Below are positions 5,185-53,263 of a DNA stretch of 64,000 nt, piece after piece. Made by a program: the position numbers and the translations under genes. The notes beneath the pieces were generated by a model, which worked only from the letters and a program-made list of their open reading frames with translations, was not told where the DNA came from and did no database searches. Where the stretch lies: positions 62,001 through 126,000 of the forward strand of contig NZ_JASCXX010000006.1 of assembly GCF_030012215.1 (NCBI RefSeq). Reading direction: 5' to 3'. Positions within the stretch are counted from its first letter, which is position 1; every line of letters begins with the position of its first letter. This stretch comes from Anaerobaca lacustris. Its GTDB lineage: Bacteria > Planctomycetota > Phycisphaerae > Sedimentisphaerales > Anaerobacaceae.

Positions 5185-6069
5185 ATGCCGGAAAAGGAGA
5201 AGCCAATGCCAACGACCGCCGCCAGCAGCGAAGCGACGAGATCGGACGCCAGGATGAGGGTAACCTTCGCCAATCGGCCTGTGCCCGAATCGAAGACGCC
5301 GGCCGCCGAGTGTTCCTGCCCGGTGATCCGGTCCAACGGCTTCTCCCTGTACTACGGCGCCAAGATAGGTGTCAAAGACATCACGATGGAGATCTATCCG
5401 TGCAGCGTTACGTCGATCATCGGTCCCAGCGGCTGCGGCAAGAGCACGTTCCTGCGCAGCATCAATCGGATGAACGATCTGATCCCGCACGTGCGGGCCG
5501 AGGGTCTGCTCGAAGTGGACGGGCAGAACGTCTACGACAAGCGCACCAATCTGGTCAATCTGCGCCAGCAGGTGGGCATGGTGTTCCAGAAGCCCAACCC
5601 GTTTCCCAAGAGCATCTTCGACAATGTTGCCTACGGCCCTCGCCTTCAGGGGGTCAAGCGCAAGGATGCGCTGCAGCACGTCGTCGAGCAGAGCCTCAAG
5701 GCCGCTGCGATCTGGGATGAGGTGAAGGACGATTTGCGAAAGTCGGCCTTGGCGCTTTCCGGCGGACAACAGCAGCGCCTGTGCATCGCCCGCGCGCTGG
5801 CGACGCGTCCGAGAGTGCTGCTGATGGACGAGCCGTGCTCGGCCCTGGACCCCATTGCCACCGGGCGGATCGAGGACCTGATCGGCCAACTCCAGAGCAC
5901 CTATACGATCGTGATCGTGACGCACAACATGCAGCAGGCGGCCCGCGTCAGCGAGCGGGCGGCGTTCTTCTGCCTGGGCGAGTTGATCGAATACGATCGG
6001 ACCGAAAAGATCTTCAGCAACCCGGAAATGAAACAAACCGAGGACTACGTCACCGGACGATTCGGATAA
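5185..6069 (+). CDS. pstB: Phosphate ABC transporter ATP-binding protein PstB
   Basis: The cytoplasmic ATPase of the phosphate importer, 294 residues from this start. Walker A GPSGCGKS (about 80-87), PstB-specific INRMNDL, Q-loop [17 protein letters not shown], signature LSGGQQQR, Walker [13 protein letters not shown] and switch H in VTHNMQQA are all present. ATG 5185 has GAGGTG 8 bases upstream; an alternative ATG at 5206 also has AAGGAGA, so the first seven residues are uncertain. The first 40 residues are a nonconserved extension. It lies 35 bp after pstA in the same operon. Confidence 0.95.
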
Positions 6070-8671: not shown

Positions 8672-9478
8672 TCAGTAGTCCTTGAAGTTGCGTATCCATT
8701 CGGGCCAGTCGGCGGTCGTTACACCGCCGGCCTTCGTCCAGGGCCCGGCGGTGTTGAAGGACTTGTGCCATTTGAGTGTCCACAACTCTTTCAGGCCCAC
8801 CTTCCGCACTGATCCGTCCAGGAACAAGCAGTTCACGGCGGCGTTGTGCCGATTGATGCAGCAACGAGCCATGTTGTTGCCCGACCAGGAGGCGAACTCG
8901 TTTGCGGCCGGCCCGTCCGTTTCCAGAGGCCACAGGTCGAAACGCAGAGCATCGACAAACAGTGGCACCTCGTCGGAATGGGGCACCGTGTCGAAATCTC
9001 GCCAACCTTCGCTGGCCCGCACGCCGCCCTCATAAGTGCCCCCCCAGGAGTCAACGGTATAACCATTAAGACCGTAGCTGCCCGCCATGCCCTCGGGTGC
9101 GTAATACGATCCTGCGCTGAGGCCCCAGGCAACGAAGACCGACGCCCTGTCGCGGATCTCCCCATTCTCGTCGAGTGAGGGCTTATCGGCCTCAGGACAG
9201 AGCCAGATTCTCGTCTTCCTATGGTCCAGATGCTCCGCATCCAGGTTGCTGATCCAATAGTATGCCGACCCGCCTTCTCCCGTGAAGAACTGGCCGTCAT
9301 TACGTTCGAGATAGTCCTGGAAGACCTCATGCCACTGGCGCAGGTTGTACTGACAGACGATTTCTCTCGCTCGTCGGCGCCCCGACGGCCCGATGGCCGA
9401 AAGGTTGCTCATCAGGACAATCACCGAGACGAGCAGGACCGCGACGTCGCTTCGATTGATCTGCCGAATGGTTCTCAT
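8672..9478 (-). CDS. Pseudopilin-like protein of the H-X9-DG type (first of three)
   Basis: A 268-residue protein with an N-terminal membrane helix (about 11-30), then GRRRAREIVCQYNLRQWHEVF. There is no prepilin GFTLIE site. RHNAAVNCLFLDGSVRKVG carries a full H-X9-DG motif, and the C-terminal 40 residues (WTLKWHKSFNTAGPWTKAGG... FKDY) match the paralogue at 6997-7791. WLCPEADKPS is the usual 'CP' segment of these proteins. It lies 48 bp downstream of the beta-propeller gene on the same strand, so the four probably share one transcript. Confidence 0.88.
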   Translation of the reverse strand: MRTIRQINRSDVAVLLVSVIVLMSNLSAIGPSGRRRAREIVCQYNLRQWHEVFQDYLERNDGQFFTGEGGSAYYWISNLDAEHLDHRKTRIWLCPEADKPSLDENGEIRDRASVFVAWGLSAGSYYAPEGMAGSYGLNGYTVDSWGGTYEGGVRASEGWRDFDTVPHSDEVPLFVDALRFDLWPLETDGPAANEFASWSGNNMARCCINRHNAAVNCLFLDGSVRKVGLKELWTLKWHKSFNTAGPWTKAGGVTTADWPEWIRNFKDY

Positions 9479-9526
9479 GTTTGATCTTCCTCCGCCTCGT
9501 CCCTTCGTTCAATGGTCTTCTTTGCG

Positions 9527-10873
9527 TCACTGCGCTGCAGCCGGCTCGGGCGCCGGCTCCTGGAGCGAATCGACGGACAGGGTTTGCACCGTGTTGGCCG
9601 CATCGGTGATCAGCATGGAGTCGTCCTGCGAGTTGGTGACGAGCACAGCGCCGTCGGCGGTGACAATCGGATAAGCGGGCCAGCCGGCCGTCTGCCAGCG
9701 GCCGATCTGCCGGCCGTCGGCATCGACGACGTACACGCATCCATCGTCGCAGGCGGCGTAGACCAGGCCGTTCGCATCGACCGTCAGCGTGAAGCCGCCG
9801 AGGTCGCCCAATCTGATAGTCCACTTGAGGATGCCACTCGGATCGACCGCTCGCAGATAGGGATCGTCCAGGCTCACGTAGATGGTGCCATCGGGCCCGA
9901 CGACCGGCTCAGACCAGCCGTCGGCATCGGGGTCGAAGTCCATTGCGGTCTTGTCAATGACCGGCGTTTCGAGCAGATCGACCGACCAGCGAATGGTCCC
10001 ATCGTCCGGCTCGATCGCATACAGATGGCTGTCGTAGAGCAATGTCTGATAGATCGTCCCATCGGGACCGACCACCGGCGACGTGAACGGCCAGCCGCCG
10101 GTCTTGGCGCTGTTGGGGTCGTTCGCGTTCTCCGGATACAGCGCAAAGCTGCACGCCCATTTGACGCTGCCGTCGGCCGGGTCCAGGGCGTAGAGAGTCG
10201 GATCGTAGAGACCCGCGATGTAGACCGTGCCGTCGGCGCCGATGGAGGGCGATGCGAAGACGGCGCCTTGGAGATTCGCCGAGGCTTCGGTCTGGAACGA
10301 CCATCGTTTGCCGCCGTCGGCCGTGAAGGCATGGAGTCTCCCGTGGGTCGATCCGAAGTAGACGTTGCCGTTCGACGCGACGGCCGGGGAGGAGTAGATC
10401 TCACCGCCGACGGCATAGGTCCATCCCGCGCGACCGTTTGGGTCGAAGCTGTAGAGTTTCCCGTCCCGTCCGCCGACGAACAGACGCCCATCGGGCCCGA
10501 TGCTCGGGGCGCTGAGCAGGGGTGTGTTGACGTCGGCGGTCCAGAGCGGCGTACCGCCGGCGTCGAGCGCGTAGAGTCTGCCGTCCTCGCAGGCGACGTG
10601 GACCCGGCCGTCATGGCCCACCGTGGCGCTGCCGACGACGGCCCCGCCGATTTCGCGAGTCCATTCGCCGGCCGGCTCGATCAGGCCCTCGTTGGGGCTC
10701 ATGCCGCTTCGTGTGTAGTCGCCCCCGAGCGATGGCCACTGGCCCGCCAGATCGAACTCCGGGTGGGCGGTGTTCGGGTCTGCCAATGCTGTTGGGACGA
10801 TGGGCAGTTGGGTCAGTGTGAAGGTCAGGACCCCTGCGCACGCCAAAAGAACGATCGATGTCTTGGTGTTCAT
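9527..10873 (-). CDS. PQQ-type beta-propeller repeat protein, secreted
   Basis: A 448-residue exported protein. The signal peptide (about 1-31) ends near TALA. The rest is WD/PQQ-like beta-propeller blades, each containing a GxDGxxYVG/A segment and L(Y/H)ALDP/D, e.g. GRVHVACEDGRLYALD, GTVYIAGLYDPTLYALDP and GLVYAACDDGCVYVVD. Blades of this kind resemble BamB and PQQ-dehydrogenases, but dehydrogenase catalytic residues are not evident, so a binding or scaffold role is more likely. The gene heads the pseudopilin-like cluster and has a near-consensus promoter 81-109 bp upstream. Confidence 0.87.
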   Translation of the reverse strand: MNTKTSIVLLACAGVLTFTLTQLPIVPTALADPNTAHPEFDLAGQWPSLGGDYTRSGMSPNEGLIEPAGEWTREIGGAVVGSATVGHDGRVHVACEDGRLYALDAGGTPLWTADVNTPLLSAPSIGPDGRLFVGGRDGKLYSFDPNGRAGWTYAVGGEIYSSPAVASNGNVYFGSTHGRLHAFTADGGKRWSFQTEASANLQGAVFASPSIGADGTVYIAGLYDPTLYALDPADGSVKWACSFALYPENANDPNSAKTGGWPFTSPVVGPDGTIYQTLLYDSHLYAIEPDDGTIRWSVDLLETPVIDKTAMDFDPDADGWSEPVVGPDGTIYVSLDDPYLRAVDPSGILKWTIRLGDLGGFTLTVDANGLVYAACDDGCVYVVDADGRQIGRWQTAGWPAYPIVTADGAVLVTNSQDDSMLITDAANTVQTLSVDSLQEPAPEPAAAQ

Positions 10874-40390: not shown

Positions 40391-40767
40391 GCCATCGGGG
40401 GCAGATGTCACAGCAGAGGGGTTCGGCCTTCACGGATGTGTCCGAATCCGGGCGCGCCCGTCCAAAACCGGGCGCAGCCGCAGAGCCAACCCCCCATGGC
40501 GACCCCCACAGCGTGGCCCTCGCCTGGCACACTGTTTGCATCCCCTCCGTCCGAAGACGGTACAACTGCAAACGAGAACGAGTTGACAGTTCACACTCGG
40601 CCCGCCCGAGGCGGGTCAGCCGGCGAACCAGGAACCTGCGAACTGAGAACCGACAACCGGGAACTGAAGACCGGAGACCGAGCATCTTCTTGGCGCGACG
40701 CACATCGCTATAAGCAAGCGCTGTATGCCCCACAACCACCTGCCATCAGAGAAAGGATGGAGCAATC
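40391..40767 (+). other. Degenerate intergenic region upstream of the permease array
   Basis: No gene is supported. TGTCCGAATCCGGGCG (40439-40454) is repeated exactly at 41180-41195, each followed by a similar AACCGGG. At 40573-40672 there is a diverged copy of the hairpin spacer that separates the permeases further on. The region looks like the remains of an earlier duplication. Confidence 0.5.
40573..40672. repeat. Permease-spacer hairpin repeat, diverged copy (A0)
   Basis: GAGAACGAGTTGACAGTTCA and AACCAGGAACCTG then CGAACTGAGAAC match the spacers at 43869-43955 and 46466-46542. A small GC palindrome (GGCCCGCCCGAGGCGGGTC, 40599-40617) is inserted in the middle. Confidence 0.7.
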
Positions 40768-40980
40768 ATGCAGAACACCGATGGATTGACGCCGATGGAC
40801 CGAGAGCTGGAGGCGGCGCTGCGAAGCCTGCACGTCGCTCCGACGACGATTAACCGTGACAAAGTGCTGTTCGACGCTGGGCGCGCCTCAGCCCGCCGTC
40901 GCAGACACGCTGCCCAACCTCGACCGGCCCCTGACGCCGATGTTTCGGCGATTCGACCAAGGGGCGCCGGCTCAGTCTAA
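40768..40980 (+). CDS. Small protein, probable truncated remnant (70 aa)
   Basis: A 70-residue frame with GGAG 7 bases before its ATG. Its N-terminus (PMDRELEAALRSLHVAPTTINRDKVLFDAGRASARRRR) looks like the cytoplasmic part of small planctomycete membrane proteins that precede permease or sigma-factor genes, where a membrane helix would follow the arginine run. Here the frame ends after a Pro/Arg-rich stretch with no membrane segment, so a frameshift or truncation is likely. Confidence 0.45.
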   Translation: MQNTDGLTPMDRELEAALRSLHVAPTTINRDKVLFDAGRASARRRRHAAQPRPAPDADVSAIRPRGAGSV

Positions 40981-41460
40981 CAGCCGATGGCAACGTTCTC
41001 TGCCGTTCTCCACGGCCAGGAGAGACAGATCCGGGATCGGCCTGACGATTTGCCCGCCGAATCGCCGGGGCCCACGGCAGCATGTCGATTCTGAAGAGCC
41101 GGCCGGACTCCACAGGCTGCCAGCTCCGCCTGCGCCTGTTGCGGAAACGGTCGCCCGATGGACATTCAGCTTGAGTGGTTGTCCGAATCCGGGCGGGCCA
41201 ATCTCGAAACCGGGTATAGGAGATTAGAGCGATAAAGCAAATAGCTATCACGACAACGCTCCCCTCGGCGCGAATTCACGTCTTTCGCTGAAAGACGCAT
41301 ATGGCTATCACCCTCGTGCGTGACTGAGAGCCGATATAGTGTTGTCATATTAAGAGGTGTTGCTTGGCTGCTACGGGAGCTCAGGACGCAGAGTCTCTTT
41401 GGCATGCCGTTTGCCGTACAAATGAGGCGAAGATGGAAATCGCTTTGGCAGGAGAGACCG
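40981..41460 (+). other. Noncoding or decayed region before the first permease
   Basis: No intact gene is supported in these 480 bp. Contents: the second copy of TGTCCGAATCCGGGCG at 41180-41195 and an in-frame extension of the permease from 41320 that is not homologous to the starts of the other permeases. The frames present look random in composition. Confidence 0.45.
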
Positions 41461-43866
41461 ATGGGAACACTGTGGCAAGACATTCGATACGGCCTGCGAA
41501 TACTGAGGAAGAGCCCCTGTTTTACGGCGGTTGTCGTTCTGACGCTCGGGTTGGTTATCGGCGTGTGTTCGACACTATTCACGGCGGTCAACTACCAACT
41601 GTTCAGACCGCTGCCGATCGAAGCACCGGACCGCCTGGTTCGCCTCTGCCGGACAAACGAGCGCCGTGCGAAAGGACTGCTTCTGAACGCCGCTCGACTT
41701 GCCGAGTATCGCCGCCGAAGTACCGCCTTCATCGGACTGGCGGCCATGGATTCGAAGACCATGACGCTCACCGGCTCCGGCGAGGCACGGCACTTCCAGG
41801 TGGCGAGGGTCAGCCCGAGTCTCTTCGGCGTGTTCGGCTTCGAGCCACTGTTGGGACGTGGGTTCAGCGAGTCGGCAGCGGAAGGTCCACCGGCACAGGA
41901 GGTGGTCATCGGCTACGCCACATGGCGCGACGTGTTTGATCGGGATCCGAACGTCCTCGGTGCGACGCTGTCGCTGGATCAGCAGACGTATACCGTGATC
42001 GGCGTGATGCCCAAGGATCTGGCTCGTATCGAACTCGGCTGGGCCGGCGATTTGTGGATTCCGTGGGAGTTCACGCGACCGGCCGAAGGCGATTCGTGGT
42101 TCACCGTGGTGGGGCGGCTCAAGCCGTCGATCACGCCCGAACAGGCGCAGTCCGAATTGCTGGTACTCGGCCGGGCGATCGAGAACATGCACGATCCGAG
42201 AGGCACGTACGATCGAGCGACCGTGGTTCCCTATCTTCAGTCCCATACGAGTGCGGAGGAAATCGCCGGCGCGGTCTTTTTCATCATGACGGTGGTCTTT
42301 GTGCTGCTGATCGCTTGTGTGAACGTGACGAATCTCTTTATCGCGCGGACGCTGACCCGGCGACGCGAACTGGCTGTGAGACTGTCGCTGGGGGCCAGTC
42401 GCGCTCGGCTCGTACGTCAGTTGCTTGTCGAGTTCGGCATCTTTGCGGCACTCGGCGGTTTGCTGGGCCTGTTGTGGGCCAAATGGACTTCGGATGTCCT
42501 TGGCGCACGCGGCCTGGCCGACTTGACTTTCGACTGGCGCGTGGTCGTCTTCACGACGGGGATTTCATTGCTGGCGGGGGCGACCTCAGGGCTTGTACCA
42601 GCGCTGCGATTCTCCAAGCCCAACCTGACCGAGGGGTTGAAAGAGGGGGGGCTGGCGACCTCTTTCGGGCATGGACATCACCGCCTGCGCAGCGGTCTGG
42701 TGATTACACAGATGGCCATGGTGACGGTGCTTTTGATCACATCGGGCTTAATGATCCGCAGCTTCGTCAAACTCGGTCGTGTCCGTCCTGGTTATGATAC
42801 GCGAAATCTCGTCACCATGAATGTCAATCTCCGGGATCAGGATTATCCTGAGCAGGCGGCGAAACAACTGTTCCTTCGGCGGGTGCTGGAGAACCTCCGT
42901 GCGCTGCCCGCTGTGGAGGATGCGGGGCTGACCTCGCTGGCGGCCGTAGCACGCAATCCGGGAGGATTTCCGTTCCGGATTCAGGGACAGTCCGTGGCCG
43001 AGAGCCGCGAGCCTCGCCGTGGTGCCATCAATGCGGTCGACGCGAGCTTTCTCCGTATGGTGGAAGCTCAGGTGCTCAAAGGCAGGATCATCACCGATGC
43101 GGATGTCCGCCGCAGTGCGGGGGTGGCCGTCATCAATGAGACACTGGCCCGGCGGTACTTCTCGGGACAAGACCCGCTTGGCCGGTTTGTCGAATTGCAT
43201 GACTCCGCAGCCGCGCCGCGATGGTATGAGATTATCGGTGTCGTTGCGGATCTCAAGAACATTGCCTTCGACGAGACACCGTTTGCGGAGGTGTTCATTC
43301 CGTATATGCAGTTGGAGCGATTCCCGCTGAGCCATTATCTCATGATTCGGACGGCAACCGATCCCCTTGCGATGGCCGGCGCGCTGCGCGAGGCCGTGTT
43401 GTCGGTGAACCCGAATCAGCCCGTGGGCAACGTGAGTTCGGTTGAGTCCCAGATCCGGCAACTGCGAACCTGGAACGATGAGATTCGGAACCTCATGCTG
43501 CTGTTCGGAGCGCTGGGCTTCGTGTTGTCTACGATCGGAATGTACGGCGTCGTCTCCTACATGGTGACGGAACGGACGCGGGAGATGGGGGTCCGTATCG
43601 CGTTAGGGGCTGTCCAACACGATGTCCTGATGCTGGTCTTGCGTCAAAGTCTGCGGCTGGTTGCTATCGGCGGGGCCATCGGTGCGTGTTTGGCACTGGG
43701 CAGCACCTTCGTCCTGGACAGCTTGCTCTACGCCGTCAGTCCGGCCGACCCGCTGACCTACGGCGCCGTCTTTATGCTCGTGGGCAGCGCCGCTGTCCTC
43801 GCAAGTCTCCTTCCTGCCCGCCGGGCGGCGAAGGTCGATCCGATGGTGGCATTGCGGTGTGAATGA
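41461..43866 (+). CDS. ADOP-type MacB/FtsX permease, copy 1
   Basis: An 801-residue membrane protein of two tandem permease halves, each with a periplasmic MacB-type core domain and FtsX-like helices: eight membrane segments in all (near 22-42, about 270-395 three, 420-440, 685-795 three). MGTLWQDIRYGLRILRKSPCFT is the standard start of orphan duplicated permeases (ADOP). No ATPase domain. FtsX-type motif RRRELAVRLSLGASRARLVRQLLVE and final RRAAKVDPMVALRCE are shared with the three paralogues. ATG 41461 is chosen by homology with the other copies; a longer frame starts at 41320. Confidence 0.9.
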   Translation: MGTLWQDIRYGLRILRKSPCFTAVVVLTLGLVIGVCSTLFTAVNYQLFRPLPIEAPDRLVRLCRTNERRAKGLLLNAARLAEYRRRSTAFIGLAAMDSKTMTLTGSGEARHFQVARVSPSLFGVFGFEPLLGRGFSESAAEGPPAQEVVIGYATWRDVFDRDPNVLGATLSLDQQTYTVIGVMPKDLARIELGWAGDLWIPWEFTRPAEGDSWFTVVGRLKPSITPEQAQSELLVLGRAIENMHDPRGTYDRATVVPYLQSHTSAEEIAGAVFFIMTVVFVLLIACVNVTNLFIARTLTRRRELAVRLSLGASRARLVRQLLVEFGIFAALGGLLGLLWAKWTSDVLGARGLADLTFDWRVVVFTTGISLLAGATSGLVPALRFSKPNLTEGLKEGGLATSFGHGHHRLRSGLVITQMAMVTVLLITSGLMIRSFVKLGRVRPGYDTRNLVTMNVNLRDQDYPEQAAKQLFLRRVLENLRALPAVEDAGLTSLAAVARNPGGFPFRIQGQSVAESREPRRGAINAVDASFLRMVEAQVLKGRIITDADVRRSAGVAVINETLARRYFSGQDPLGRFVELHDSAAAPRWYEIIGVVADLKNIAFDETPFAEVFIPYMQLERFPLSHYLMIRTATDPLAMAGALREAVLSVNPNQPVGNVSSVESQIRQLRTWNDEIRNLMLLFGALGFVLSTIGMYGVVSYMVTERTREMGVRIALGAVQHDVLMLVLRQSLRLVAIGGAIGACLALGSTFVLDSLLYAVSPADPLTYGAVFMLVGSAAVLASLLPARRAAKVDPMVALRCE

Positions 43867-43868
43867 GA

Positions 43869-43955
43869 ACGCGTTGACAGTTCACGGTTGGCAGTTGTCG
43901 GCCAGGAACCAGAAACCTGTGAACTGAGAACTGGCAACCGGGAACTGTGAACGGG
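43869..43955. repeat. Permease-spacer hairpin repeat (A1)
   Basis: GTTGACAGTTCACGGTTGGC...GTT at the left pairs with AAC...GGCAACCGGGAACTGTGAAC at the right as an imperfect inverted repeat. It is nearly identical to the spacer at 46466-46542 and diverged from 40573-40672. Confidence 0.85.
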
Positions 43956-43964
43956 AGTCATGCA

Positions 43965-46463
43965 ATGACGACTTTGTGGCAAGATGTTCGGTATGGGGTG
44001 CGGATGCTGAGGAAGAACCCCGGCTTCACTGTAGTGGCGGTGGTTTCGCTTGCGCTGGGCATTGGTGCCAATACCGGGATCTTCACCATCTTCGAGCAGG
44101 TGTTGTTGCGCTCGCTGCCGGTCAAGGACGCCGGTGCGCTGGTGATCCTGACGCCCGAGGGCAAGTACATCGGATCGCAGTGGGGGGGCCATGTGCTGTC
44201 CTACCCGATGTTCAAGGACTTCCAGGCTGACGAAAAGCTCTTCGACGGGGTCCTGTGCCGGCGTAGTGAGATTGTTGTGATGAACGATGGACGCGGAGCC
44301 GAGCGGATCGAGATTGCGCTGGTTTCGGGCAACTATTTCGAGGTGCTCGGGGTGCCGCCGGCGCTGGGCCGCACGTTTGTGGCAGACGATGAGACTGCGC
44401 CGGGCACCAACCCGGTGATTGTGCTCAGTTGCGATTTTTGGCGGAGTCGTTTCGGGGGCGATCCCAATGTTGTCGGGCGTACGCTACGGATCAATGATAC
44501 GGCCATGGAAGTCGTCGGCGTTGCGGTCCACGGATTCAACGGTCTGAGCCTGGATTCCCGGCCCAGGCTCTTCCTTCCGATCACCATGAAGCCACAGGTC
44601 AGCGGTGGGTGGGAGCGGCGTATGGATGACCGGCGGACGCAGTGGGTGCAGGTCTTCAGTCGACTCAAACCGGGCCTCTCGTGCGAACGGGCGGAGGTGG
44701 CGATTCAGACGCCCTACAAGCAGATCATCCAGCGCGAAGTCGAGGACGCGAGTTTCGCAGGTGTGCCGGCGGAAGAACGCGAGCAGTTTCTTCAATCGCG
44801 CCTCGTGCTGCTGCCGGGACGCAGGGGACTGTCCTACCTGACCACCGGGCTCGGCCGCCAGTTTCTGCTGCTGATGGGCCTGGCGGGACTGGTCCTGCTG
44901 GTGACGTGCGCCAACGTTTCGAATCTCCTTGTCGCCCGGACGACCCGGCGTCAGAAGGAGATCATGGTCCGCCTGGCCATCGGGGCCGGACGCTGGCGCA
45001 TCATGCGACAAGTGCTCGTCGAAAGCCTGCTGCTGGCCTGCGCCGGTGGGGCGGCGGCCCTGTTGGTCGCTGCGCTGACCGCCCGTGCGATTCTCCGATT
45101 TGCGCCGGGTCAGTTGAGCCTCACCCTCTCTCCCGAGATCAACGAGACCATGCTCGCGTTCAACGTCATCCTCTCGGCGGTGGCCGCGCTACTGTGTGGA
45201 TTGGTGCCCGCCTGGCGCACGACGCAGGTCGATCTGGCTTCGACCCTCAAACAGCAGGCGACGTCCATCACCGGCGGCCGAGGGACGCGGTTGCGGCAGG
45301 GCATGGTCGTGACGCAGATATGTCTGTCCCTGATCCTGCTGGTCGCCTCGGGACTATTCATTCGCTCTCTGGCGGCGCTATATCGGATCGACCCAGGCTT
45401 TCGTCCGATGAACCTGGTGTGTTTCGGACTCGACCTGACCCGCAGTGGGCATGACGGGCCCCCGCGGGTCGATTTCTGCCGGCAGCTTCGGACCCAACTG
45501 CGTTCGATTCCAGGCGTCACATCGACCGCGTTTGCCAAGGTGCCGCTGCTGGAAAATGATTCCTGGTACAACGGGATCGTCGTCGAAGGCTACGAGCCGA
45601 AGCCGGGCGAGGACGTGGCGTCCTACTGCAATTCGATCTCGCCGGACTATTGCAGGACGGTGGGGATGACCATGAGACTGGGTCGGGAGTTCAATGAACG
45701 TGACGAGATGCCCGGCGCCGGAATGGTGATTCTCGTTAACGAGGCGTTCGTCCGCTGGTTTCTGCCCGACCGCCATCCTGTCGGCTGTCGTGTGGGCTTG
45801 CGATGGAGTACCGATGCCCAGCCGGACCGGGAGATCGTTGGCGTGGTGTGCGATTCAAGAAACGCCAATCTACGGTCGTCGGCCAATCCCCAGGTGTTCT
45901 TTCCGTACTCGCAAATCGGCATCGACCAGATGACCGTTTACGCACGAACCAGCTTGCCTTCCCAGGAGCTGTTCAGCGCGATTCGGCGGCAGGTGCGCCG
46001 CCTCGATGACACGATGCCGCTGCTCAATATGCGGACCATGGAAGATCAGTTGGATCGCTCTCTGGCGAACGAGCGGCTCATCGGGTTTCTCTCGAGCCTG
46101 TTTGGCATTCTTGCGACGGCGCTGGCCATGATCGGGCTTTACGGTGTCACGGCGTACAGCGTCGCCCAGCGCGTGCAGGAGATCGGCATCCGAATGGCCC
46201 TCGGCGCCCAGCGACCCAGCGTCGTCTCGCTGGTCCTGCGCGAAGGGATGACGCTGGCCGGCATCGGCGTCATGGTCGGCCTGGCGGGTGCGTTTGCCTT
46301 AACGCGTGTGCTGCGCAGTTGGCTCTTTGAAATCAGCCCGACCGATCCACTGACGTTTTCCGCCACGGCGCTGCTGCTGACCGCCGTGGCACTGCTCGCC
46401 TGCTACCTCCCCGCCCGCCGGGCGGCGAGGGTCGATCCGATGGTGGCGCTGCGGCATGAGTGA
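43965..46463 (+). CDS. ADOP-type MacB/FtsX permease, copy 2
   Basis: An 832-residue paralogue, start MTTLWQDVRYGVRMLRKNPG. Two MacB-type periplasmic domains and two FtsX permease regions; LVTCANVSNLLVARTTRRQKEIMVRLAIGAG is the conserved coupling region and QRVQEIGIRMALGAQRPSVV its second-half counterpart. It ends RRAARVDPMVALRHE. ATG 43965 has GGAG 8 bases upstream. Probably part of an exporter using an ATPase encoded elsewhere; substrate unknown. Confidence 0.92.
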   Translation: MTTLWQDVRYGVRMLRKNPGFTVVAVVSLALGIGANTGIFTIFEQVLLRSLPVKDAGALVILTPEGKYIGSQWGGHVLSYPMFKDFQADEKLFDGVLCRRSEIVVMNDGRGAERIEIALVSGNYFEVLGVPPALGRTFVADDETAPGTNPVIVLSCDFWRSRFGGDPNVVGRTLRINDTAMEVVGVAVHGFNGLSLDSRPRLFLPITMKPQVSGGWERRMDDRRTQWVQVFSRLKPGLSCERAEVAIQTPYKQIIQREVEDASFAGVPAEEREQFLQSRLVLLPGRRGLSYLTTGLGRQFLLLMGLAGLVLLVTCANVSNLLVARTTRRQKEIMVRLAIGAGRWRIMRQVLVESLLLACAGGAAALLVAALTARAILRFAPGQLSLTLSPEINETMLAFNVILSAVAALLCGLVPAWRTTQVDLASTLKQQATSITGGRGTRLRQGMVVTQICLSLILLVASGLFIRSLAALYRIDPGFRPMNLVCFGLDLTRSGHDGPPRVDFCRQLRTQLRSIPGVTSTAFAKVPLLENDSWYNGIVVEGYEPKPGEDVASYCNSISPDYCRTVGMTMRLGREFNERDEMPGAGMVILVNEAFVRWFLPDRHPVGCRVGLRWSTDAQPDREIVGVVCDSRNANLRSSANPQVFFPYSQIGIDQMTVYARTSLPSQELFSAIRRQVRRLDDTMPLLNMRTMEDQLDRSLANERLIGFLSSLFGILATALAMIGLYGVTAYSVAQRVQEIGIRMALGAQRPSVVSLVLREGMTLAGIGVMVGLAGAFALTRVLRSWLFEISPTDPLTFSATALLLTAVALLACYLPARRAARVDPMVALRHE

Positions 46464-46465
46464 GA

Positions 46466-46542
46466 ACGAGTTGACGGTTCACGGTTGGCAGTTGTCGGCC
46501 GGGGAACCAGGAACCTGTGGACTGACAACTGACAACTGGAGT
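46466..46542. repeat. Permease-spacer hairpin repeat (A2)
   Basis: GAGTTGACGGTTCACGGTTGG...GTTGTCGGCC and AACCAGGAACCTGTGGACTG...ACAACTGACAACTGG repeat the A1 spacer with a shorter right arm. Both A spacers end GGAGTCATGCA directly before a start codon, so the ribosome site is part of the repeat. Confidence 0.85.
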
Positions 46543-46548
46543 CATGCA

Positions 46549-48954
46549 ATGGCAACCATGTGGCAAGACATTCGATATGGCCTGCGGATGCTCGCGAAAA
46601 ATCCGGGGTTTACGGTGGTGGTGATTGTGATCCTGGCGGTGGGGATCGGCGCCAACACGGCGGTCTTCAGTATCGTCAATGCGGTGATGCTCCGGCCTTT
46701 ACCTTATGAGGACGCCGATCGGATCGTATGTATGTATAACCATTCGCAGTGGGGCGACTTTCCTCCACCACACGGCGGCTTTCTCCTGTGTCGCGAAGAC
46801 AACCCCGTTTTCGGACAGATGACCGCATGTGGCCCGATGCGTGCGGAGGTCTCCGGGATCGAGAATGCCCGGCGGGTTCGTGCGACGGCCGTCTCATCCG
46901 AGTTCTTCTCGTTTGTGCGTGCCAAGCCCTTGTTGGGCCGTGTTTTCCGCGCGGAAGAGGAACAGCCGGGCAAGGATCTGGTGATAGTTGTCAGCCACAG
47001 TTTCTGGCAGAACGATCTGGGTGGGACCGACGCCGCCATCGGCAAGACTGTGGGCGTGGACGACAAGAACTACACCGTCGTGGGTGTGATGCCGCGCGAT
47101 TTCAAGCCGATCTTCGGAGAACCCACCACCTTCTGGATTCCGCTGGTCTTTTCCGTGCCGGACCCCGCCTTGCCGCTGGGATACGCTGTGTTTGTTTATG
47201 CACGCCTGAAGGAGGGGGTCACACTGGAACAGGCCCGCGCGTTCATGCCCGCGCTCGCCGAACGGTTCAAACGGGCGGACCCGCAGGGAGAGGACTACAA
47301 TCTGGCGATTCAACGGCCGCTAGACAAACAACTGGAGGGCAAACGCACGCTGCCGCTGCTGCTTCTGGGAGCGGCGGGGTTCATCCTGTTGATCGCTTGC
47401 AGCAACGTGGCCAACCTGTTCCTGGTTCGCGCGACCATACGACAGCGCGAGCTGGCCATGCGTGCGGCCCTGGGTGCATCCCGAGGACGCATCCTGCGAC
47501 AAATGATCACGGAGGGTCTCCTGCTGAGCGCAGCCGGCGGCGCGGTCGGCCTGCTGATGACCGTCTGGACCCTCCAGGGTCTGGTCGGCCTGTGTCCGCG
47601 CGACATCCCGCGACTGGATGAGACGAGGGTTGATCTGCCGGTGTTGGCGTTCACATTGGGCATATCGGTCCTGACCGGTCTTTTGTTCGGTGCGATGCCG
47701 GCCTGGAAAGCCTCCGGCACGCGGATGGCGGAGATGCTCCAGGAAGGCGTGATGCGTCCGACCATCGGCAGGCGGGGCCGCCGTGTTCACAGCGGTCTCG
47801 TCGTGGCTCAGGTCGGGCTGTCCCTGATCCTGCTCATCGGAGCGGGCCTGCTGATTCGCAGCCTGATCGCATTGCAGCGACTCGATCTGGGGTTCCGTCC
47901 CAAAAATGTGCTGGCGATGACGGTGGTCTTGCCAGCCGACAAGTATGCCGAGCCTGCCCGCTGTCAGGCCTTCTTCGAGGGGCTCTTGCCGCGCGTGCGA
48001 GCCCTGCCCCACGTTCGGTCGGCCGGACTGAGCCTCAGCGAGTTGGGCCTTGGCTTTGCGGGATACGCGGCGGCTCGCATCTCCATCGCAGGCCGTGATC
48101 CTGTCCCCACGGAAGAGCAAGATGTTGCGCTGCTCTCGGTTGTGACGCCTGGCTTCTTCCAGGCTCTGGGCGTTCCGTTGTTGCGGGGGCGTACGTTCAC
48201 CGAAGAGGATCTTGTCACCGAGACGAGCCACATTGTGATCGACGAGCATTTGGCTCGCAGGCACTTCGGTGACGTCAATCCGATCGGTCGGCGGATCGAT
48301 TTTCCGGACAGCCATCATATCGTCATCGGCGTGGTGGATACGGTCAAGGATTTCGAGCATCTGGAACAGGCGTACAGCACGATCTATCTGCCGATGACGG
48401 CGGAGCACTGGGCCGAGCAGGTGGTATTCGTTGTCCGAAGTGATGGCGACCCGCTGCGCTTGGTCGACGCGATCACCGCGCAGGCGGCGGACCTGGAGAC
48501 GGACAAAATCACCTGGCGGATCGAGACGGTCGAGGCCAGGCTGGCTGGTATGCTGCGCCCAAGACGCGTCAACATGATTCTGCTGAGCCTCTTTGCGGGG
48601 ATTGCGTTGATCCTGGCAATGGTCGGCGTCTACGGCCTGCTGCAGTACAACGCGACGCAGCAGACCCGCGACATGGCGATTCGCATGGCGCTAGGCGCCC
48701 GGAAGAAGGACGTGCTCACGGCGATGGTCCGACAGGGGCTCACGCTCACGTTGATCGGGGTCGTGGTCGGACTGGCCGGTGCGATTGCGCTGACCCGGTT
48801 GCTCAGCAGTCTGCTCTACGGCGTGACGCCCACGGACCCACTGACGTTGACGGTCGTCTCGCTCGTGTTGATCGCCGTCGCGCTGCTGGCCAGCTACCTC
48901 CCCGCTCGCCGGGCCGCGAAGGTCGATCCGATGGTGGCGTTGCGGTATGAATGA
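46549..48954 (+). CDS. ADOP-type MacB/FtsX permease, copy 3
   Basis: An 801-residue paralogue, start MATMWQDIRYGLRMLAKNPG. Same two-half layout: IACSNVANLFLVRATIRQRELAMRAALGASRGRILRQM in the first half and QQTRDMAIRMALGARKKDVL in the second. It ends RRAAKVDPMVALRYE. ATG 46549 chosen because GGAG lies 8 bases upstream and the protein aligns with copies 1 and 2; the longer frame from 46456 translates the repeat spacer. Confidence 0.92.
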   Translation: MATMWQDIRYGLRMLAKNPGFTVVVIVILAVGIGANTAVFSIVNAVMLRPLPYEDADRIVCMYNHSQWGDFPPPHGGFLLCREDNPVFGQMTACGPMRAEVSGIENARRVRATAVSSEFFSFVRAKPLLGRVFRAEEEQPGKDLVIVVSHSFWQNDLGGTDAAIGKTVGVDDKNYTVVGVMPRDFKPIFGEPTTFWIPLVFSVPDPALPLGYAVFVYARLKEGVTLEQARAFMPALAERFKRADPQGEDYNLAIQRPLDKQLEGKRTLPLLLLGAAGFILLIACSNVANLFLVRATIRQRELAMRAALGASRGRILRQMITEGLLLSAAGGAVGLLMTVWTLQGLVGLCPRDIPRLDETRVDLPVLAFTLGISVLTGLLFGAMPAWKASGTRMAEMLQEGVMRPTIGRRGRRVHSGLVVAQVGLSLILLIGAGLLIRSLIALQRLDLGFRPKNVLAMTVVLPADKYAEPARCQAFFEGLLPRVRALPHVRSAGLSLSELGLGFAGYAAARISIAGRDPVPTEEQDVALLSVVTPGFFQALGVPLLRGRTFTEEDLVTETSHIVIDEHLARRHFGDVNPIGRRIDFPDSHHIVIGVVDTVKDFEHLEQAYSTIYLPMTAEHWAEQVVFVVRSDGDPLRLVDAITAQAADLETDKITWRIETVEARLAGMLRPRRVNMILLSLFAGIALILAMVGVYGLLQYNATQQTRDMAIRMALGARKKDVLTAMVRQGLTLTLIGVVVGLAGAIALTRLLSSLLYGVTPTDPLTLTVVSLVLIAVALLASYLPARRAAKVDPMVALRYE

Positions 48955-49032
48955 GACGGGGATCGGGGGTCGGGGTTCAGCGATCAGAAAAGACTGTCCC
49001 GCGACTTGTGGCCCGTGGAAAGGACGAACGAA
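48955..49032 (+). repeat. Permease spacer of second type (B1)
   Basis: GGGATCGGGGG, GGGGTTCAG, GACTGTCCC and GGAAAGGACGAACGAA occur in the same order in 51520-51604 (B2). It supplies the ribosome site for copy 4. Confidence 0.75.
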
Positions 49033-51519
49033 ATGAGTGCTCTGATTCACGATATCAAGTATGGAACACGACAACTGATCCGGTCGCCCGGCTTTACGGT
49101 TGTGGCGATCGTGTCACTGGCCTTGGGCATCGGGGTCAATACCGCGATCTTCAGTTTGCTCAATGCGGTGTGGATGCGGTCGTTGCCTGTGCCCGATCCG
49201 CATGCGTTGCGAGTGGTGAATTGGAGCGGCCACAATGCGCGCCTCTCCCACTATTCGGGGGGAGCCGGTGACGCCAAGAGGGACCGTACCGGAGCCATGG
49301 TATCGGGGTCCTTCCCGTATCCGGTGTATCGTGACTTCAAGGAGCGGGTCGAGGGATGTTCTGGCGTATTCGCCTTCTGCGAGTTGCAGGGACTGACCGT
49401 GGTGGGCCCCAAAGGGGCGGCCACGGCCGCCGCGATGATGGTCTCGGGCGATTTCTTCGAGGGATATGGGGCCCGCGCCGCGCTCGGGCGCACGTTGAGG
49501 CCCAGTGATGAATCTTCGGATGCCGAGCCCGTCGCGGTGATCACCTATCGCTGGTGGGAAAAGGAATACGATCTCGATCCCGAGGTCATCGGCCGAATGA
49601 TAATCGTCAACGGTCATCCGTTCACCATCGTCGGCGTCATGCCTCGCACCTATTGCGGCCCGCAGGTCGGCGACATGGCCCAGATGTATGTGACGATGTC
49701 CGCCCAGTCCTCGCTGAGCCCGGACCATCCTCTGGACGCGCGGGATCACTGGTGGGCCACCATCATGATGCGTCTGGAGCCTGAGGCCGACGAGACGCAA
49801 CTCCGGGCCGCCATGGAGGGTCTCTTTCTCCAGACCTTGTCCGTGCCGGGGCAGGGAACGCAGATGGAGGACCCACGTATTCATCTGGTCGACGGTAGCC
49901 GGGGACTTCTGGGGATGCGCAGGCAAATGGCCATGGGGCTCGCTGTCCTGATGGGCGCTGTGGGACTGGTCCTGATGATCGCCTGCGCCAACCTGGCGGG
50001 GCTGCTGTTGGCGCGGGGGGCGGCGCGCCGACAGGAATTGACCGTGCGGGCAGCTCTGGGCGCCGGGCGCGGCCGGCTGGTCCGCCAGTTGCTCACCGAG
50101 AGCCTCGTCCTGTCTCTGGTCGGAGCCGGACTCGGGTTGCTCGCAGCGATTTGGATCAAGGCCGCCGTGTTGGGCCTAATCCCGGATAGCCTGGAGAGTT
50201 TCCATCTCGATGTGGGCATCGATCTGCGCGTGTTGCTGTTCACGCTGAGCGCCGCGATGGCGACGTCCCTGTTCTTCGGTCTGCTCCCGGCCCTGCGTGT
50301 CACGCGGGTGGATCTGTGTTCGGGGCTCAAGAGCCACAAGACGTTGGGTGTCCCTGGTCTGCGTCTGGGCAAGGTTCTGGTGGCGGCCCAAGTGGGTCTT
50401 TCGGTTCTGCTGTTGGTGGGCGCCGGCCTGTTGATACAGACGCTGGTCAATCTGTACCGGACCGATCTCGGATTCAGCACCGACAGGATACTGGTCTTCG
50501 GTCTGAATCCCGGCCAGGCCGGATACGAAGGCGATGACTCCGTCCGGTTCTACGATCAGATCGAGGCTGATATCGCGAGTCTTCCCGGTGTCCGAAGCGT
50601 CGCATTGTCCGGCGACGGTCTGTTGGCAGGCCGCCGCGCCAGCAATGCTTTCTCGATCCCCCGACGCCTGCAGCAGACAGATCAAGATCTTCAGGCCGAT
50701 GTGCTCGACGTTAGCGAGGCCTTCTTCCAGACGATGGGCATTCCACTACGACGCGGCCGGACCTTTGAAAGAACGGACACACCGTCGCAGCCCGGAGTGG
50801 TCATCGTTAACGAGGTCTTCGCGCGTACTTTCTTTGCTCATGAGGACCCCGTTGGTCAGTTGATTCGGATGAACAACAAGGACTATCGGATTGTGGGCCT
50901 GTGTGGAGATGCCAAGTACGATCGAGTCCAACGCGAAATCGAGCCCACCCTGTATTTCTCGCACAGGCAAGCCCGCCCAGGAGCGATGGTCTTTGAAGTC
51001 CGTGCCGCAAGCGACCCCCTCGCCCTGGTTCCTGCCGTCCGCAGGATTGTGGCCGACCTGGATCGCACCATCCCTTTGGAACAGATCTCCACGCAGTTGC
51101 AACTCTTAAAAGCCTCCATTACGCCGGAGCGGATCTTCACCTATTTGTGCAGTGCTCTGGCCTTGCTTGGCGTTCTATTGTCCTGTATCGGACTCTACGG
51201 TCTGCTGGCCTTCATGGTGACCCGCCGCACCGGCGAGATCGGCGTGCGCATGGCCCTCGGTGCTGCGCCGCGCGACATTGCCTGGCCTGTGATGCGCAGT
51301 GCCCTCTGGATGGCGGCTTGTGGCCTATTGGTCGGCGTCCCCGTCGCACTGGCGCTGACGCGAGTTCTGCGAAGCGTCCTCTATGGCGTCACACCCCATG
51401 ACCCGATCGCCATCGTAGCCGCCGTCGTGTTGGTACTCTCCGTGGCGGCTCTGGCCGCCTGGATTCCCGCCCGTCGGGCGGCGAAGGTCGATCCGATGGA
51501 GGCGCTAAGATATGAATGA
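49033..51519 (+). CDS. ADOP-type MacB/FtsX permease, copy 4
   Basis: An 828-residue paralogue, start MSALIHDIKYGTRQLIRSPG, slightly different from the MxTLWQDIRYG start of copies 1-3. IACANLAGLLLARGAARRQELTVRAALGAGRGRLVRQLLTE and RRTGEIGVRMALGAAPRDIA are the FtsX coupling motifs. It ends RRAAKVDPMEALRYE. The ribosome site is AAAGGA 9-11 bases upstream. It is followed by a B-type spacer and the TolC-like gene, so it may have been captured by a duplication separate from copies 1-3. Confidence 0.92.
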   Translation: MSALIHDIKYGTRQLIRSPGFTVVAIVSLALGIGVNTAIFSLLNAVWMRSLPVPDPHALRVVNWSGHNARLSHYSGGAGDAKRDRTGAMVSGSFPYPVYRDFKERVEGCSGVFAFCELQGLTVVGPKGAATAAAMMVSGDFFEGYGARAALGRTLRPSDESSDAEPVAVITYRWWEKEYDLDPEVIGRMIIVNGHPFTIVGVMPRTYCGPQVGDMAQMYVTMSAQSSLSPDHPLDARDHWWATIMMRLEPEADETQLRAAMEGLFLQTLSVPGQGTQMEDPRIHLVDGSRGLLGMRRQMAMGLAVLMGAVGLVLMIACANLAGLLLARGAARRQELTVRAALGAGRGRLVRQLLTESLVLSLVGAGLGLLAAIWIKAAVLGLIPDSLESFHLDVGIDLRVLLFTLSAAMATSLFFGLLPALRVTRVDLCSGLKSHKTLGVPGLRLGKVLVAAQVGLSVLLLVGAGLLIQTLVNLYRTDLGFSTDRILVFGLNPGQAGYEGDDSVRFYDQIEADIASLPGVRSVALSGDGLLAGRRASNAFSIPRRLQQTDQDLQADVLDVSEAFFQTMGIPLRRGRTFERTDTPSQPGVVIVNEVFARTFFAHEDPVGQLIRMNNKDYRIVGLCGDAKYDRVQREIEPTLYFSHRQARPGAMVFEVRAASDPLALVPAVRRIVADLDRTIPLEQISTQLQLLKASITPERIFTYLCSALALLGVLLSCIGLYGLLAFMVTRRTGEIGVRMALGAAPRDIAWPVMRSALWMAACGLLVGVPVALALTRVLRSVLYGVTPHDPIAIVAAVVLVLSVAALAAWIPARRAAKVDPMEALRYE

Positions 51520-51604
51520 AACAGGGATCGGGGTTCAGGGTTCAGAGGAGAATGTCCCTTGGCTGCTGACCCTCAACTGCCGACCCTTGGAAGGAACGAA
51601 TGAG
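51520..51604 (+). repeat. Permease spacer of second type (B2) before the TolC-like gene
   Basis: GGGATCGGGGTTCAGGGTTC, AATGTCCC and CCTTGGAAGGAACGAA follow the B1 spacer in order. It leads into a start codon context almost identical to that of permease copy 4. Confidence 0.75.
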
Positions 51605-53263
51605 ATGAGCACCCTGATCCATGATGGCAAATGCGCTGAGAAGAATGAATCGATTCACGTTCGCAGAGGACGGACGGAATGCCTGCTGCTGGCCCTGCTG
51701 CTGGCCGGCTGCGGGCGCCCGCAGGTTCAGCGGACGGCGGAGCTGGAGGCGTTGGCGGCGCGGTCGGGCGAGATCGAGAGGGTGCAGCTCAAGGACCAAT
51801 CGCGGTCGGAGCCGGTGTCGATCGAGCGGGCAACCGAAGAGCTGGCGGCCCGAGTGGTTGAACCCAACGCCGTGCCGCATGGGGCGGTTGAACTGACGCT
51901 CGAAGAGGCTCGTGCGGCCGCGCTGACGAACAACCTGGACCTGAAGTTCCATCTGGTCGGCCCCTCGATTGCCGAGCAGTCGGTGGATGAAGAGCGGGCG
52001 AAATTCGAGTGGACGTTCTTCGGATCGGCCGGATACAGCCGCAGCGAACTGGGCGACGAGGGCAACACCGTCTCCATGCAGTCCTACGACACGGGTGTCG
52101 CGATCCCGCTTCAGACGGGCGGTTCGCTGCAGGCCGGCCTCCCGTTCAGTCGCGCCGATTACGACGCCGACGACATCGGGGGCGTCTCCAGCGCCGCCGT
52201 GAGTGTCTCTTACATTCAGTCTCTGCTCCGGGGCGCCGGCACGCGGATCAACACGCATTCGATTCGGATCGCGGTGTACGAGAAGGATATCGTAGACGTT
52301 CGAACGAAGCTCCTGGCCATTGCCATTCTCGGGAACGTCGATATCGTCTACTGGCAACTCTACGCGGCCCGCCGCGAGCTGGACGTACGCCGCGAGCAGT
52401 ACAAGCTCGCCGAGGACCAGTTGGACCACGCACGGCGAAAAGTCGAAGCCGGCTCGGCCCCCAAGATCGAAATCGTCCGCGCCGAGGCCGGTCTGGCCGG
52501 CCGGCTCGAAGACGTGATCAACGCCGAGACATCGGTCCGCGACCGCGAGCGGGAACTCAAGCGGATCCTGAACCGCGACGACCTGCCGCTGGGCGTCGAG
52601 ATCGACATCCTCCCGACGAGCGAGCCGGAGCCGATCGGATTGGATCTGGACGCCGAGGCGATCGTCGCCGCGGCCCTGGACAACCGGATGGAGACGGCCG
52701 AACTCGAACTGCGTCTGGCCGTGGACGAACTGAATGTGGAGCTGGCGCGCAATCGCACGCTGCCGGATGTGACCTTCGACTACAGATACGCCGCCACGGC
52801 TCGGTCGGGCAGCTTGGGCGGCGCCCTGGGAGACATCGGCGGCGATTCCCTGCAAGATCACGCCGTGGGCATCTCAGCGGTGATTCCGCTGGGCAACCGA
52901 GCGGCGCAGGCTCGGCTGCAAAGGGCCCGTTTGGAGAAGGTTCGCGACCAGATCGACCGCGACCGCCTGCGCCAGAGCATTCGCCAGGAGGTCTACAACG
53001 CGGTCGACGAGTTGCGGCAGAACTGGCGGCGTATTCTCGCGGCCGAGCAGGGCGTGGTCACGGCGTATCGCGACTACAAGGTCGAACAGTCGCAGTTCCA
53101 GTTGGGCAAGCGCACCAGTACGGACGTGTTGTTGAGCGCCTCGCGACTGGCCGACGCCCAGTCGCGGCGGATTCGTGCCTTCGCCGAATACGAGATCGCC
53201 CAGGTCCGCCTGGCCCGCGCCAGCGGCACGCTTCTCGGCTTGGGGCGATTGCAGATCCGATGA
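51605..53263 (+). CDS. TolC-like outer-membrane efflux lipoprotein
   Basis: A 552-residue outer-membrane factor. A leader ends in lipobox LLAGC (Cys about 36). Two OEP repeats follow: TLEEARAAALTNNLDLKFHLV (about 98), the periplasmic helices VREQYKLAEDQLDHARRKVEAGSAPKIEIVRAEAGLA, and the second repeat with RQSIRQEVYNAVDELRQNWRRI. The first 10 residues (MSTLIHDGKC) and the ribosome site copy the start of permease copy 4 (MSALIHDIKY), so the original 5' end appears to have been replaced. The hydrophobic core of the leader is short. It may pair with the permeases as the outer channel. Confidence 0.9.
   Translation: MSTLIHDGKCAEKNESIHVRRGRTECLLLALLLAGCGRPQVQRTAELEALAARSGEIERVQLKDQSRSEPVSIERATEELAARVVEPNAVPHGAVELTLEEARAAALTNNLDLKFHLVGPSIAEQSVDEERAKFEWTFFGSAGYSRSELGDEGNTVSMQSYDTGVAIPLQTGGSLQAGLPFSRADYDADDIGGVSSAAVSVSYIQSLLRGAGTRINTHSIRIAVYEKDIVDVRTKLLAIAILGNVDIVYWQLYAARRELDVRREQYKLAEDQLDHARRKVEAGSAPKIEIVRAEAGLAGRLEDVINAETSVRDRERELKRILNRDDLPLGVEIDILPTSEPEPIGLDLDAEAIVAAALDNRMETAELELRLAVDELNVELARNRTLPDVTFDYRYAATARSGSLGGALGDIGGDSLQDHAVGISAVIPLGNRAAQARLQRARLEKVRDQIDRDRLRQSIRQEVYNAVDELRQNWRRILAAEQGVVTAYRDYKVEQSQFQLGKRTSTDVLLSASRLADAQSRRIRAFAEYEIAQVRLARASGTLLGLGRLQIR

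Follow-up and report, generated by a model that had tools for sequence, protein, structure and literature searches.

The TolC-like outer-membrane lipoprotein gene that closes a tandem array of ADOP permease genes in Anaerobaca lacustris is probably (roughly 0.8) a chimera, in which the 5' cassette of an ADOP permease, acquired by recurrent exchange, precedes the original TolC hydrophobic core, lipobox and mature protein. That this gene had inherited a permease start was proposed in a first-pass annotation of the window (the whole 64,000-nucleotide stretch analyzed). The proposal was supported here; two relatives, whose TolC-like genes carry usual ADOP starts behind the spacers of their respective arrays, lend it more support than the window does.

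Gene layout of the array

All array features described here lie on the forward strand. Permease copies 1 (41461..43866), 2 (43965..46463) and 3 (46549..48954) begin with A-type starts (MGTLWQDIRYG, MTTLWQDVRYG and MATMWQDIRYG, respectively) and copy 4 (49033..51519) begins with a B-type start (MSALIHDIKYG). All four were assigned to the ADOP permeases by TIGR03434 (790.7, 923.8, 858.8 and 860.3 bits for copies 1 to 4; cut-off 622.3). The TolC-like gene (51605..53263, 552 aa) was identified by its orthologues and by PF02321 (outer membrane efflux protein, OEP; two stretches, 123.8 bits against a gathering cut-off of 22), and scored below the curated cut-off of the NCBIfam TolC subfamily TIGR01844 (104.3 against 225.15 bits). 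Beyond it in the window lies a convergent secretin-domain gene, and 5' of the array are a probable sigma-54-type response regulator and a probable histidine kinase, whose family matches are below curated cut-offs. The interval from the histidine kinase to permease copy 1 (40571-41300) contains a short open stretch and copies of A-spacer pieces (families D5 and D7), possibly remnants of lost array units.

Neither an adaptor (HlyD-like) gene nor a MacB-type ATPase gene was found in the array (40391-51604). Both genes are present in the arrays of the relatives G005, G001 or G002. When the G005 adaptor was used as query, no match was obtained in the window and only partial matches of 30% and 26% in the whole assembly; the top window match to the G005 ATPase was 32%, at 5371-5943. 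Judged by an adaptor and an ATPase encoded with the permeases, the window array does not qualify as a MacAB-TolC-type pump.

The leader of the TolC-like gene comprises 36 codons (51605..51712), with an n-region (~51605-51679) that includes the putative permease-derived start (first 12 codons, 51605..51640), a hydrophobic core delimited by hydropathy (~51680-51700) and the closing lipobox LAGC (51701-51712). No in-frame ATG, GTG or TTG was found between 51605 and the lipobox; an ATG at 51512, in frame with the gene, overlaps the 3' end of the permease gene and lacks an evident ribosome site.

Match between the TolC-like start and permease copy 4

The first-pass annotation had noted that the TolC-like gene resembles permease copy 4 in its ribosome site and first codons and that a B spacer precedes both genes; each observation held when compared with dinucleotide shuffles (n = 2000). 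MSTLIHDGKC is encoded from ATG 51605 and MSALIHDIKY from ATG 49033. The B spacer before the TolC-like gene (51520..51604, ribosome site GGAAGGA at 51589-51595) was homologous to the spacer and ribosome site before copy 4 (48955..49032), and spacer, ribosome site and codons were collinear from the permease stop to codon 12. Over this whole length the alignment scored 28.5, compared with a mean of -12.4 for the shuffles (z 9.2, 0/2000). The spacer alone gave z 5.6 (0/2000), the ribosome site with the 12 start codons z 6.3 (0/2000), and codons 2-11 alone z 4.4 (1/2000).

In a start-anchored comparison with 1320 in-frame start codons of the longer window ORFs, copy 4 ranked top with 36/56 identical positions (runner-up, 29), and its start was also the top match of the TolC-like cassette among 31 other starts. 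Likeness over the codons only was moderate (21/39 nt, codons 1-13), and the B-type match ranked 220 of 496 among all start pairs. Because the ribosome site is homologous, the TolC-like gene would take its translation signals from the permease array, its translation presumably driven by a permease-derived ribosome site.

Start types of the orthologues

Orthologues were sought in 80 genomes (the window's own included) and in named genome contigs. Close orthologues were found in G005 (LVBB01000158), G001 (JAAYBA010000443) and G002 (JAAYBV010000042), with the leaders MATLWQDVRYGLRRLPCWVLASLLLAGC (G005), MTTLWQDIRYGLRLLRCWVLASLVLAGC (G001) and VSVVIHDIHRVEKNQLVCVRTWRAAWLLAGLVLAGC (G002), compared with MSTLIHDGKCAEKNESIHVRRGRTECLLLALLLAGC in the window. 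Tandem ADOP permease arrays ending in a TolC-like gene are likewise present in the relatives examined, and the permease adjoining this gene differs in each of the four genomes (identity of the other three to copy 4, 32-37%). Permease-type starts of two kinds were present on the TolC-like gene in 4 of the 6 genus genomes compared. The window and G002 have the MSTLIHD-like (B-type) start; G005 and G001 have MxTLWQD(V/I)RYGLR (A-type), the usual start of ADOP permeases in these arrays, together with spacers of their own arrays. Ordinary TolC leaders were found in the remaining two, G003 and G004, and in more distant orthologues.

Leaders were read by eye at 36 loci, including orthologues and paralogues. 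After exclusion of four same-genome duplicates (L003/L032, L004/L034, L005/L033 and L011/L036) and of L013, which is cut before the leader, a permease-type start was counted at 4 of 31 distinct readable loci and was lacking at the other 27. A codon pattern combining the ADOP start with a lipobox, which is blind to B-type starts, was matched in 2 of 89 family genomes (G005 and G001). A relaxed version, equally blind to B-type starts, was matched in 1 of 392 phylum genomes (G434), and this match was judged from its sequence to be due to chance.

An orthologue sharing the MSTLIHDGK start had been named beforehand as an outcome that would speak against inheritance from a permease. One such orthologue exists, in G002, and the capture is not undone by it; judged from this shared start, the capture appears to predate the window species.

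The lipobox LAGC was present in 4/4 close orthologues, following a hydrophobic core (hydropathy 2.44-3.21) as in bacterial lipoproteins; the charge was +1 to +2. The earlier statement that the sequence turns into a lipoprotein leader after the permease-like codons thus stands, the core and lipobox having stayed TolC's own. By these simple measures a permease N-terminus joined to the TolC core and lipobox is predicted to be an acceptable lipoprotein signal, and the leader would be exported and lipidated.

Joins between cassette and leader

In G005 the TolC-like gene is identical to the adjoining permease from about -15 to +36 (37/39 nt over codons 1-13), so that ~50 identical bases end abruptly: beyond +38 the match to this permease fell to 3-8/18, whereas that to the G001 TolC leader was 13-18/18. 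A high-identity tract with a sharp end, as expected of gene conversion or recombination, was thus found between these two genes. Over the whole G005 cassette another permease of the same array scored 0.5 higher than the adjoining one (87.0 against 86.5). The whole G001 cassette matched its own adjoining permease best among 31 starts (108.0; next 106.0, a G005 permease; z 20.2), with a spacer of a different kind from that of G005. The ribosome site and start of the G002 TolC-like gene matched window permease copy 4 with z 7.0, and copy 4 was the top match of both B-type TolC starts among the permease starts compared (ribosome site and codons). The G002 TolC start does not match its adjoining permease, and its spacer resembles that of another permease. 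All four leaders are alike over ~30 nt upstream of the lipobox Cys and farther upstream the A and B types diverge, which places the join close to where the n-region meets the hydrophobic core.

In the tree of the TolC bodies the window sequence was outermost, followed by G001 and then by G005 with G002. Monophyly was rejected both for the A-type pair (G005 and G001, p-AU 0.0163) and for the B-type pair (window and G002, p-AU 0.0023), each with four ingroup sequences. Since neither start type is united by this tree, the start type must have changed at least twice; accordingly, the four ingroup sequences show disagreement between start type and flanking-gene tree, a further mark of gene conversion or recombination.

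Cassette exchange among the permeases

Ten permease pairs whose bodies are 60% or more alike were compared, and in all ten neither member had the other as its best cassette partner. Copy 4 and its G002 orthologue are 81% identical in body and match at 30/65 nt in the cassette, the orthologue having an A-type start and a different spacer. The upstream region of the G005 permease at 78300 matched that of the G002 permease at 9678 (27-30/30 nt per 30-nt segment, up to the start region), and its body follows another permease. At these loci (L101, G005 77494-78300; L102, G002 8872-9678) a spacer beginning like the window B spacer precedes an ATPase gene; the spacer end and the start of the next permease are common to both genomes and the permease bodies differ. 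The G002 orthologue of copy 4 is in two pieces (80% and 87% identical) at contig ends (end of L104 and start of L102; contigs C3 and C15), so the G002 array is probably a single longer array split in assembly.

The array unit boundaries (permease end, spacer, ribosome site and start) are direct repeats. Spacers of the A and C types consist of degenerate short repeats and their inverse. Four of seven spacers, all A or C type, folded better than shuffles (z -2.6, -4.2, -5.1 and -6.2; window 43867-43964 and 46464-46548, L032 5860-5979, L034 5815-5952). Both B spacers of the window, like the spacer before the G002 TolC gene, folded no better than shuffles (z -0.8, -0.9 and -0.2), and a hairpin as a general spacer feature was ruled out on these three of seven. 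Stretches similar to array spacers also match elsewhere in G002 and G001.

Proposed route of exchange

The exchanged cassette would comprise the intergenic spacer, the ribosome site and approximately the first 12-16 codons, derived from the start region of one of the array's ADOP permeases; the hydrophobic core, lipobox and mature protein would be those of the original TolC lipoprotein. We infer recombination or gene conversion at array unit boundaries as the route. The TolC gene would first gain such a boundary, which crossover or gene conversion would then re-exchange, often with the neighbour, and exchange between the repeated boundaries would tend to place a nearby permease's start on the TolC gene. 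The short positively charged stretch that precedes the first membrane helix in the permease would now provide a lipoprotein signal peptide with its n-region. To the wider proposal we give even odds: that the 5' cassette is an interchangeable part among the permeases and the end lipoprotein gene, recurrently replacing the n-region, and that it may keep translation of the outer channel in step with that of the array.

Alternative explanations

Transfer in the opposite direction within the window, with the B-type start of copy 4 taken from TolC by unequal crossing-over at the array end and only the A-type TolC starts of G005 and G001 being permease-derived, was considered unlikely. B-type starts occur on TolC in two species yet on only 1 of the 28 permeases listed, and the A-type start of the G002 copy 4 orthologue also fits such a transfer. 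However, copy 4 retains the ADOP pattern D-I-K-Y-G beyond the part common with TolC, and its start agrees with those of two G003 relatives (MSTFANDVKYGIRQL and MSVLVNDIKYAFRQL) and so fits its own lineage, which makes a permease origin of the B-type start the better reading. Similarity without homology, through selection favouring membrane targeting or an effective initiation region, could draw on the shortness of the sequences and on the ATG and purine-rich ribosome site common to all starts, but it is very improbable: the match extends beyond the codons to spacers and upstream bases, the identity in G005 runs for ~50 bases and stops abruptly, and more distant orthologues do well with unrelated leaders.

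The first-pass annotation had further suggested that the original leader was lost by a frameshift, and one may suppose that a permease start then restored the open frame. The alternative +1-frame beginning MNRFTFAEDGRNAC does exist (ATG 51645, inside an ORF at 51621..51896) and is out of frame with the lipobox; an out-of-frame start has the same location (offset +16) in both the window and G002. In the frame test this ORF did not qualify as a gene. Leader length (36 codons) and reading frame are shared by the G002 orthologue, and the two leaders gave a BLOSUM score of 75 in frame 0 against 19 and 9 in the other frames. Their changes numbered 12, 9 and 17 at codon positions 1, 2 and 3 (17/38 at the third; p 0.05), the same test being non-significant for the G005/G001 pair alone (p 0.16). 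The +1 frame of the leader carries a stop in G002, and the +1 reading is used by 0 orthologues among the leaders read. With frame 0 conserved, a third-position excess and the +1 stop in G002, loss by frameshift is not supported and was given very little weight. Least probable of all is an assembly error at the spacers, although these are repetitive and the named genomes are metagenome assemblies: four separate assemblies with four different permease neighbours nevertheless place a permease-type start in frame with the same leader core, and downstream of the start codon the G005 and G001 leaders show no break in frame despite differences at 12/81 nt. A permease-derived cassette on an original TolC lipoprotein remains the preferred reading.

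On this reading, the gene represents a replicated bacterial case of a signal peptide half-built from the start of a neighbouring gene, in which permeases of the donor kind still adjoin the TolC-like gene and sister species retain several exchange states. Should the leaders prove functional, a membrane-protein anchor and a lipoprotein signal would have mutually replaceable n-regions. Start regions in tandem arrays may, to judge from this case, evolve apart from the proteins they begin, and this can mislead both start-codon annotation and trees that include N-termini.

Comparison with known systems

The four window permeases are members of the ADOP family (TIGR03434), for which tandem arrays with a terminal TolC-like gene are also found in relatives; the TolC-like gene is itself no permease, and its likeness to the family is limited to the 5' cassette. 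With the lipoprotein branch of TolC (PF02321) this gene shares two OEP stretches and a lipobox leader, but the first part of that leader is permease-like in four of the six genus genomes. MacA-MacB-TolC systems are tripartite pumps. The window permeases match MacB-like models, having MacB-type periplasmic and FtsX domains with a TolC-like exit channel nearby, but their array is without the adaptor and ATPase carried by the arrays of relatives.

Neither chimeric genes nor homogenised tandem repeats are new as kinds; a literature search of titles and abstract openings found no recurrently exchanged start cassette that supplies a non-paralogous gene with part of its signal peptide. Concerted evolution, or gene conversion, of tandem repeats produces local homogenisation, sharp boundaries and conflicting trees. 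The cassettes described here show the same local homogenisation, sharp boundaries and tree conflict; the difference is that the receiving TolC-like gene is non-paralogous, sharing with the permeases the 5' cassette alone, which supplies part of its signal peptide.
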